Assembly (NCBI GenBank): GCA_021826065.1
Contig: JAKADY010000001.1
Location: forward strand, 62,001-126,000
Length of the DNA: 64,000 nucleotides
Reading direction: 5' to 3'
Source: Pseudomonadota bacterium
Lineage (GTDB): Bacteria > Pseudomonadota > Gammaproteobacteria > Burkholderiales > Thiobacillaceae
Of this stretch, positions 61,423-64,000 are shown one piece after another. Below the pieces are notes generated by a model that saw only the letters and a list, made by a program, of their open reading frames with translations, did no database searches and was not told the DNA's origin. Numbering within the stretch: the stretch's first letter is position 1; each line of letters opens with the position of its first letter. A program made the translations under genes and the position numbers.

Positions 61423-61938
61423 ATGAGCGAAGAAGTCCGTAAAGAGGAAGTGGCCGTGCGTCCGGCCGAGGGTGGTCAAGTGCAGAAGGCGGCGCCCGCG
61501 CGCTGGCTGAGCCCGTTCGAGGAGATGGAAAGGCTTATGGATGAGTTCTTCCCGCGCGGCTGGTTGCGGCGTTGGGAATGGCCCGCCTTCCCCGAGTTGT
61601 CCCGTCGCTTCGAGTTCAGGATGCCCAAGGTCGACATCATCGACCGGGCCGAGGAGGTGGTGGTCAAGGCCGAGCTGCCGGGCATCGACAAGAAGGACCT
61701 GGACGTCACCGTGACGGGCGACACCATCACCATCAAGGGCCAGACCCGGCATGAGGAGAAAGAGGAGAAGGGCGACTACTTCCGCAGCGAGATCTCGCGC
61801 GGTAGCTTCTCCCGTACCCTGGTGCTCCCCGCTGCGGTCGATGCCGCCCGCGCCAAGGCCACGTTCAAGGACGGCCTGCTGGAGGTGACGCTGCCCAAGA
61901 AGGAAGAGGCCAAACGCCAGAGTGTGACCATAGAATGA
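61423..61938 (+). CDS. small heat shock protein (Hsp20/alpha-crystallin family)
   Basis: 171 residues from the ATG at 61423, preceded by the near-ideal Shine-Dalgarno AAAGGAGGTGA (2 nt gap to ATG). The alpha-crystallin domain (about 65-165) has MPKVDIIDRAEEVVVKAELP, GIDKKDLDVTVTGDTITIKG and FSRTLVLPAAVDAARAKATF, and GLLEVTLPK. It holds unfolding proteins. Between malQ and a bidirectional terminator. Confidence 0.94.
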   Translation: MSEEVRKEEVAVRPAEGGQVQKAAPARWLSPFEEMERLMDEFFPRGWLRRWEWPAFPELSRRFEFRMPKVDIIDRAEEVVVKAELPGIDKKDLDVTVTGDTITIKGQTRHEEKEEKGDYFRSEISRGSFSRTLVLPAAVDAARAKATFKDGLLEVTLPKKEEAKRQSVTIE

Positions 61939-61958
61939 CGGCACACTGAGATGGCGAG

Positions 61959-61983
61959 ACCGGGCCAGAGGCCCGGTTTTTTT
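61959..61983. terminator. rho-independent terminator between hsp20 and the GGDEF-EAL gene
   Basis: Stem ACCGGGCC-AGA-GGCCCGGT (61959-61977) followed by TTTTTTT (61977-61983). It ends hsp20. The restored stop of the convergent GGDEF-EAL gene (61983-61985) touches the T-run, which supports the restored frame. Confidence 0.9.
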
Positions 61984-64000
61984 CATGCAGCCGCCGACTC
62001 GCCCACATAGCCATCCCCGAGCCCCGGGTGATCGGCGCGCGGGGTGTCCAGGGGTAGCCCTGCACCAGATCGACACCGAAGGCGCGCAGCAATTGCAGGC
62101 TGCGCGCATCCTCGACAAACTCCGCCACCGTGACCCGGCCCATGCCGCGTGCCACGTCGGTGATCGCCTTGACGAAGATCTGGTTGTCGCGGTCGTCCGG
62201 CAGGCTGCGGATGAACATGCCGTCGATCTTGACCGTGTCCACCGGCAGGTGTTTGAGGTAGGCGAAGGAGGAGAAGCCGCTGCCGAAGTCGTCCAGGCAG
62301 ATGTGGCAGCCGGTCAGGCGCAAGGCCTCGATGAAGCGCTGGGCGTCGGCCAGGTCGGTCACCGCACTGGTCTCGGTGAGCTCCACCATCAAGCGGTGCG
62401 CGGCCACCCCGTGGCGGCGCAGCAGGTCGGCGATGTACTGCGGCAGGCTGGGGTCGTCGAAGGAGCGCCCGGAGATGTTGACCGCCAGCGGCGGCATGTC
62501 GGGCCGCTCGCCCAGCAGGCGGATGGCCTCGGCCAGGACCCAGCGGTCGATCTCCAGGATGCGGCCGCTCTTCTCCGCCACCGGGATGAAGCGGCCGGGC
62601 ATGATCATGCTGTCGGGCCGCTCCTCGTCGACCATGCGCACCAGCGCCTCCAGATGCGAGAGGGCGCCGTCGCGGGCGCGATAGACACCCTGGAAGTGCA
62701 GGCGCAGTAGCCCCTTGGCCAGGGCATGGTCGATGCGGTCGTTCCAGGTCAGATGGTGCACCATGGCCGGCAGGGCGTCTTGTTCCGGACTGTAGATACG
62801 CCAGGTGTTCTTGCCGGCCTGTTTGGCCTGGTACATCGCGGCGTCGGCGTGCGTGATCAGGGCGTCGGCGTCGGTGCCGTGCATGGGGTAGAGGGCGATG
62901 CCGAGGCTGCTGGTGAGCCGCAGGTTTTGCCCCTCGAAGCGGAAGGGGATGGCGCCCACTGCGCGCACGATGCGCTCGGCCAGCTGGATGACCTCCTGCT
63001 CGCGGGCGTTGGGCACCAGCAGGGCGAACTCGTCCCCACCCAGGCGGGCAAGCGTCTCGTTGCGCCGCACTAGGGCGTTGACCTCGCTGGCCACGCGGAT
63101 CAGCAGGGCATCGCCGGCGCGGTGGCCGAAGGTGTCGTTGATCACCTTGAACTCGTCGAGGTCGAAAAACAACAAGGCCCCCATCGTCGCATTGCGCTCG
63201 CATTCGGCCAGCATGCGGCCGAGCTCCTGTTGGAAGCGGTGCCGGTTGTACAGCCCCGTGAGCGAGTCGCGCTCGGCCAGATAGGCGAGCTGCTGGGCGG
63301 TCTGGCGCTCGTGGGTGACGTCTTCGTAGATCCACAGCTGGCCGATGTAGCGCCCCTCCGCGTCGCGCACCGGGTAATTTAGCTGGGTCACCACACGGCC
63401 GTCGGCCATGGGGATCTCCAGGCTGTGAGTCGCCCCGCCCTGGAAGGGCGGGGCCTCCTCGCCACAAGCTTGAACGGGGCCTGCGGCCCCCGGTTGACGC
63501 TTCGTCTCACTGACGCTCGACCCGTGGTCGGAGACCTCGCGCGTCTCCAACACCGCCAGCATGTGGCGCGAGAAGTGGTCCGGCCGCGCCAGGGTGCTGG
63601 TCGACTGGGCCAGCACCGCGTTGACCGGCAGGCCCACCAGGTGGCTGGTCTCCGGCACCATCCAGATGCGGCGGAAGGCCGGGTTGTGATAGACGACCCG
63701 GCCGTCGGCGCCGACGAACAGGATGCCCAGGTTCATGGCGGCGAGCAGGGCGTGCAGCCGTGCCCGCTCCTCGCCGGCCTCCTGGGCGTAGCGGCGCTGC
63801 TCCGCCTCCGAGCGCGATAGACTGGACAAGGCCTGGCGCAGGTCCTCCTCGGTGGCGGTGAGTTCCTGCAGCCTGGCCTCGATGGCGTCGATCATGTGGT
63901 TGAAGGCCTGGGCGAGCTGGCCCACCTCGTCCCGGGAGCGCACCGGCACGGTGGTGTCCAGCCGCCCGGCGGTCACCGCCTGGCTGGCGCGAGTGAGCTC
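61983..64000 (-). CDS. HAMP-PAS-GGDEF-EAL cyclic-di-GMP protein, N-terminus outside window, frameshift at C-terminus
   Basis: On the minus strand from the window edge: a HAMP-like end (VPVRSRDEVGQLAQAFNHMI), a coiled coil, a PAS domain (IWMVPETSHLVGLP), GGDEF with intact RLGGDEFALL, and EAL with EALVRMVDEERP, VNISGRSF, VELTETSAV, CLDDFGSGFSS, TVKIDGMF and TVAEFVED, so catalytic residues of both domains look present. After LVQGYP a G4 run (62051-62054 plus) shifts the frame; one added C gives PLDTPRADHPGLGDG and a stop at 61983. The unrestored frame runs to 61865 inside hsp20. Confidence 0.85.
63425..63526. repeat. 99-bp hairpin-bearing in-frame segment within the PAS coding region
   Basis: On the coding strand it starts after GACCAC and ends with GACTCAC, so one CAC flanks each side, 99 bp (33 codons) apart. 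It has stem GCCCCGCCCT-GGA-AGGGCGGGGC (63432-63454) and a second GGGGCC-TGC-GGCCCC (63476-63490). The encoded Gly/Pro/Ala-rich peptide (GSSVSETKRQPGAAGPVQAC plus 13 more) interrupts SDH|SLEIPMADGR. It resembles the hairpin ends of IS200/IS605-type elements; that origin is inference. Confidence 0.55.

Follow-up and report, generated by a model that had tools for sequence, protein, structure and literature searches.

Introduction

IS608 inserts 3' of the tetranucleotide TTAC without duplication. A guide lies at the 5' foot of each of its end hairpins: AAAG pairs with the cleavage site TTAC and GAAT with TCAA. Base 1 of the left guide is matched to position -3 and base 2 to position -4 (PMC5934647). 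The element described here has in common with IS608 and the IS200/IS605 family a 4-nt target 5' of the insertion, guides at the 5' foot of hairpins and the lack of a duplication; furthermore, the left end of both contains an additional small hairpin, and both have a guide that pairs, here by prediction, with -3/-4 of the cleavage sites (PMC5934647). It differs from IS608 in that tnpA and tnpB are absent, the target is YGAC instead of TTAC and the right end is TCAC instead of TCAA.

Ends-only relatives of such elements, termed PATEs (palindrome-associated transposable elements), occur in Haloquadratum walsbyi (PMC3119063) and Halanaerobium (PMC7290912). PATEs are transposase-free, like the present element, and have IS605-related subterminal palindromes, as the 126-bp copies probably do here. 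Again as here, terminal inverted repeats and a target duplication are lacking, and a targeting sequence of 4-5 nt is present on the 5' side. A left end, a tnpB tail and a right end make up the Halanaerobium PATE (PMC7290912), which is the layout proposed here. These accounts, in the parts considered, do not describe PATEs as in-frame gene residents, whereas the present element has a length of 3n, an open frame and a place in eight genes.

In-frame insertions are known from the Rickettsia palindromic elements (RPEs), which are, as here, about 100-150 bp long, form hairpins, encode a conserved peptide and in many cases lie in frame in unrelated genes (PMC10969869). Such 'protein-coding palindromes' were found mainly in Rickettsia, and a MITE review treats the process as merely conceivable elsewhere (PMC10969869). 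RPEs belong to another taxon and their mobilizing enzyme is not named (PMC10969869), whereas the present element has a defined target, defined boundaries and ends of the IS605 type. The likeness to RPEs is one of lifestyle and form. IStrons, composed of a group I intron and an IS, likewise make genic insertion harmless, but they leave the RNA by splicing (PMC4227781), whereas the present element is presumably simply translated. REPs and their RAYTs share with it the Y1 transposase family and hairpins; however, REPs measure 20-40 bp, are mostly extragenic and occur in high copy number (PMC3733652, PMC8266576), and their sequence is unrelated to the element.

Results

An insertion in a c-di-GMP gene

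The window analyzed comprises 64,000 nucleotides (positions 62,001 to 126,000 of contig JAKADY010000001.1, forward strand) from a bacterium of the Thiobacillaceae. An earlier note on its sequence had described a hairpin element lying in frame in the PAS domain of a c-di-GMP protein. The insert was found exactly at the coordinates given, 63425-63526, in a GGDEF-EAL gene on the minus strand, and lies in the PAS domain. These coordinates span 102 bp or 34 codons; the note's figure of 99 bp or 33 codons is one codon short because one of the two CAC codons had been kept. The features are:

61865-64000, minus strand: host gene, HAMP-PAS-GGDEF-EAL c-di-GMP protein, a 908-aa open frame that continues beyond the window end
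63527-63530, minus strand: CGAC, the target tetranucleotide (YGAC) located 5' of the element, whose GAC is an Asp codon in frame; corresponds to CL of IS608; YGAC at 11/11 loci
63425-63526, minus strand: inserted element, 102-bp subtype without left hairpin, 34 codons; gap against 19 orthologues and exact empty site
63496-63506, minus strand: small hairpin GACG-AAG-CGTC; RNA fold and covariation
63476-63490, minus strand: middle hairpin GGGGCC-GCA-GGCCCC; RNA fold and covariation, 97% of cells paired
63454-63457, minus strand: putative right guide tetranucleotide (GR) position, GAGG here with consensus GAAG, where the right hairpin begins on its 5' side; by analogy to IS608 (PMC5934647)
63432-63454, minus strand: right-end hairpin GCCCCGCCCT-TCC-AGGGCGGGGC; RNA fold, compensatory changes in four pairs
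63425-63428, minus strand: TCAC, the tetranucleotide at the right terminus, corresponding to CR (TCAA) of IS608; TCAC in 10/12 copies

The insert reads CACGGGTCGAGCG...GGGGCGACTCAC from 63526 to 63425 and is located between the codons GAC (63529-63527) and AGC. Its 34 codons encode HGSSVSETKRQPGAAGPVQACGEEAPPFQGGATH, the first being CAC at 63526 and the end ...CTCAC at 63425. Excision of the 102 bp restores the junction of S-D with SLEIPMADGRVV. All 19 orthologues, each from another genome, are gap-free at this position, i.e. they lack the segment. The orthologue of G002, a member of the same genus, provides an exact empty site, TCCGAC/AGCCTGGAG (GAC/AGC; slashes mark the insertion point), where the DNA reads GAGGTTTCCGAC/AGCCTGGAGATCCCC. 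Hence, the insert extends from CAC to CTCAC, and no base was lost or duplicated. The orthologue of G003, the nearest relative, is insert-free as well; it has CAC in place of GAC at the target codon, so the target was destroyed by a single substitution. RNA folding of the insert yielded -55.7 kcal/mol with z = -3.1 against dinucleotide shuffles. The two hairpins that the note had seen are therefore real, and their pairs covary over 12 copies.

A low-copy family bound to one lineage

Searches for other copies and for orthologous empty sites, both proposed in the note, were positive; neither of the two findings named there as refuting the idea was obtained. In total, 12 copies were counted, which occupy 11 loci and come from four related genomes, namely the genome under study (G000), G002, G003 and G012. 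Five copies are present in the genome under study (2.74 Mb, 74 contigs): four in addition to that of the window, residing in sufD, close to the beginning of trpB, directly behind the signal peptide in an M16 peptidase gene and in one intergenic region upstream of a Sel1-repeat ORF. Seven further copies were identified in G002 (three copies) and G003, both of the same genus, and in G012, which belongs to a different genus of the same family; the M16 insertion of G003 is the same as that of the genome under study. Genic sites account for 8 of the 11 loci (window gene, trpB, sufD, M16 peptidase, DsrE-like, uma2, RND adaptor and cheA).

Covariance-model and peptide-HMM searches of 91 relatives gave no additional copies, weak matches such as one in G004 (E 0.01) not being counted, and a class-wide DNA search of 369 genomes revealed no copy outside the genome under study. 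The element is thus low-copy and lineage-bound. Scanning of genome contigs with GGGKTGAGCGAGACGARGC produced 25 matches with one genuine member, CALHRD010000067.1 (uncultured Burkholderiales bacterium, same genus), which is one named record of the family; the remaining matches share little beyond 19 bases and were rejected. No Rfam family scored over threshold for the element, no Pfam match was obtained with the 33-aa insert peptide, phage sequences contained no match to the element, and neither element end was found in viral contigs.

Target, frame and orientation

Exact empty sites at six loci revealed neither duplication nor loss. Besides that of the window gene, they read:

trpB: TATGAC/CTGCCC
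sufD: CATGAC/CTGATC
M16 peptidase: CTGGAC/ATCCAG
DsrE-like gene: GTGGAC/AACAAC
uma2 (G002 insertion): CGCGAC/CAGACG, with paralogues as reference

The uma2 reference is provided by the tandem paralogues at G000 C26:16369-17547; uma2 genes are numerous in these genomes. YGAC precedes the element and A or C follows it at 11/11 loci. At all eight genic loci GAC is a codon, and the element is inserted in sense orientation and in the same frame with a length of 126 or 102 bp. All coding copies have a length of 3n and lack stops in the frame in which they are translated; by contrast, lengths of 125 and 124 bp, with stops in that frame, were found for two of the three intergenic copies. As the note had assumed, the reading frame was kept and the insert appears to be tolerated.

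In the coding DNA of the window, GAC is in codon phase at 230 of 351 (66%) sense YGAC/M sites, which makes landing in frame the most frequent result. Sites in codon phase on the antisense strand reach nearly this number (185), and most copies are open in the reverse frame too; therefore, the sense orientation at 8/8 loci is a bias which stop codons do not explain (P about 0.005, a rough estimate). At all 11 loci, including the three intergenic ones, the orientation of the element is that of the host or neighboring genes. The insertion points are mainly termini, linkers or loops. In TrpB the insertion is at residue 5, at the edge of the region alignable to solved TrpB structures; others are at the mature N-terminus of the M16 peptidase, the C-terminus of the RND adaptor and a CheA linker.

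Anatomy of the element

Full copies measure 126 bp (42 codons), whereas the copies in the window gene and in cheA of G002 represent a 102-bp subtype. The left part of a full copy is CAC-GGGTCGAGCG-CAAG-hairpin 1 (CCCCGCC..GGCGGGG)-TGAGCGAGACGAAGCGT..CC and the right part is hairpin 2 (GGGGCCGCAGGCCCC)-...GTGGCGAG-GAAG-hairpin 3 (CCCCGCCCTTCCAGGGCGGGG)-TGAC-TCAC. In the 12 copies, 93% of the cells of this structure are paired, and eight pairs changed on both sides as compared to 1.3 expected, a value reached in 0/500 shuffles. The 126-bp copies thus have a covarying hairpin near both ends; the left one is absent from the window and cheA copies. The right terminus deviates from TCAC in the trpB copy (TCAA) and in the RND-adaptor copy (GCAC), which is decayed and has lost much of its pairing. 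A classical MITE was considered and rejected, as terminal inverted repeats and a target duplication are both absent.

The two 102-bp copies (window 63425-63526; G002 C8:6052-6153) lack the same 24 bp, consisting of CAAG and hairpin 1. They also have one substitution beside the gap in common, although they occupy different loci in two species. The short form is either a mobile subtype or the product of the same deletion occurring twice.

Similarity to IS605 ends

According to the IS608 rule, the guide at the foot of hairpin 1, CAAG in the consensus, would pair with TGAC, and that at the hairpin 3 foot, GAAG, would pair with TCAC. About half of the targets are CGAC, for which the predicted pairing with CAAG is weaker. 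As a control for this comparison, which was devised after the element sequence had been seen, the window hairpins of at least 7 bp were inspected; neither guide tetramer occurred at the foot of any of these 148.

As an independent indication, a similarity search of plasmid records returned as sole matches 30/32 bases over hairpin 1 in the best two records. The matching stretch is located at the left terminus of an IS605 element, adjacent to tnpA, with TGAC preceding. Another three mycobacterial elements of this group likewise have TGAC and C, then CAAG or TAAG, ahead of the hairpin. The hosts are M. avium, M. intracellulare, M. fortuitum and M. paragordonae, where IS605 is plasmid-borne; wherever both genes are annotated, tnpA and tnpB have divergent orientations. 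Their left end is TGAC, C, about 10 nt, GCG(C/T)AAGCC(C/T)CG-hairpin-GGGTGAG; identity to these elements is strong over the 32-nt left hairpin only. The mycobacterial plasmid group has the target TGAC, the left guide CAAG/TAAG and the right guide GAAT with TCAA, a guide/target pair different from that of IS608.

The right parts of the mycobacterial elements comprise a tnpB tail with GACGAAGC or GATGAAAC, a small hairpin, the hairpin GGAATCCCC and TCAA. That of the present element comprises GACGAAGC..., a small hairpin, a GGAA(G/T)CCCC hairpin and TCA(C/A) and matches IS605 tnpB-tail/right ends in layout alone; the right ends of several tnpB genes in relatives have the same layout, too.

No TnpA with the element's ends was found in the carriers or relatives, and no TnpB in the genus or the carriers. 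The TnpB tails and Y1 genes of relatives gave chance-level matches only when checked for these ends. The Y1 genes found in the carriers are all of the RAYT type. The IS200/IS605 transposase that the note had proposed to look for was thus not found in this genome, and we infer the mobilizing enzyme: the mover is therefore lost, or located on unassembled or mobile DNA, or too divergent.

Fate of the insert peptide

The M16 insertion, the only one shared by two species, was compared between them. The insert accumulated 9 non-synonymous and 3 synonymous changes (dN/dS 1.03, small counts), as compared to 49 and 62 in the next 300 codons of the gene (dN/dS 0.24). Hence, the insert looks tolerated rather than useful, with the host gene maintaining the frame while the peptide drifts neutrally. 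Across copies, the mean column identity of the peptide is 78%. The host proteins are probably functional, judging from their otherwise intact, conserved sequences.

Discussion

We consider it likely that the element is a non-autonomous, PATE-type (ends-only) IS200/IS605 derivative which makes RPE-like coding insertions. By analogy, it would be moved as single-stranded DNA by a Y1 (HUH) transposase of the TnpA type acting in trans. The enzyme would recognize the subterminal hairpins for excision and insert the element 3' of a YGAC selected through base pairing with CAAG, the left guide. In genes, a sense insertion would add a hydrophilic peptide of 34-42 residues without destroying the gene, since the target amounts to GAC, a codon for Asp, 126 or 102 bp are whole codons and the sense frame is stop-free. 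The peptide would then drift neutrally, with the frame held by the host gene. The element may have originated by fusion of a left end to the tnpB-tail/right end of such an IS. Several observations count against this reading: a matching TnpA or a TnpB was not found, the known relatives with such a left end are actinobacterial, strong identity to them is confined to the left hairpin, the CGAC targets pair less well with the guide, and the mobility of the window and cheA copies, devoid of left hairpin and guide, is not accounted for. The note had likewise suggested a miniature mobile element with IS200/IS605-like ends, a proposal which is now supported by other copies, exact empty sites, guide/cleavage-site pairing and a fixed 4-nt target without duplication.

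The note's alternative, a REP-type unit, taken here as a REP/REPIN spread by the genome's own RAYT (TnpA-REP) transposases, would account for the hairpins and for three Y1_Tnp genes, two of them of RAYT size, in this genome. We nevertheless regard it as improbable, because these genes are ringed by quite different REPs of their own (GTAGGTCGGCAA..., GTAGGAGCGG...), and none of the genes adjoins the element. Furthermore, three hairpins, a fixed YGAC target, clean genic insertions and a copy number of five do not fit a REP, and G002, with three copies, has no Y1_Tnp match at all. The RAYT-like Y1 genes (G000 C74:47636, C14:27539 and C34:100771) each lie beside their own REP/BIME array, with the repeats GTAGGTCGGCAAACCCTTGCCGAC, GTAGGAGCGGCGAAAGCCGCGAC and GTAGGAGCGGGCTTGCCCGCG. 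Equally improbable is another non-duplicating family, e.g. an IS110-type element with a structured-RNA recombinase and the core dinucleotide AC at both ends. The direct AC at both boundaries (GAC/CAC...TCAC/) and a structured repeat with no longer duplication would agree with it. However, IS110 bridge-RNA targets need more than 4-5 conserved bases, just 4-5 are conserved here, and the IS605 left-end similarity and the guides at the hairpin feet fit IS200/IS605 better.

Selection for a useful peptide module or regulatory RNA, spread by whatever route, might be read from the peptide identity across copies and the sense orientation with the host or neighboring gene at 11/11 loci. This is slightly less probable still, as the shared M16 insertion evolves with a dN/dS of about 1 next to a flank at 0.24, the RND-adaptor copy has decayed with loss of much pairing, and the hosts are unrelated and have no common feature. 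It is very improbable that translational bypass or RNA removal acts, in which the CAC...CAC repeat would allow the insert to be passed over during translation or in RNA processing. Although CAC is present at each end and the mRNA hairpins are strong, a skipped insert would not explain that all coding copies are 3n and stop-free while two of three non-coding copies are not; moreover, both the trpB copy, which has no second CAC, and the RND-adaptor copy, which has no strong hairpins, are in frame.

Within the preferred reading of an IS200/IS605 derivative, it is conceivable, if rather doubtful, that the element has adapted to genic life, its YGAC target, 3n length and stop-free sense frame making a harmless in-frame insertion the default. 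A weaker idea is that the sense-strand tnpB-tail/right-end structure in the host mRNA could serve as omega-RNA scaffold for a TnpB acting in trans; host sequence could then occupy the guide position.

In our judgment, this is an IS605-type, PATE-like element which behaves like RPEs but belongs to a different lineage; its target, its boundaries and the logic of its reading frame have been resolved. The family links in-frame palindrome insertions to the well-understood single-strand mechanism of IS200/IS605, and its codon-matching target can let mobile DNA add peptides to conserved enzymes such as TrpB and SufD, apparently without lethal effect.
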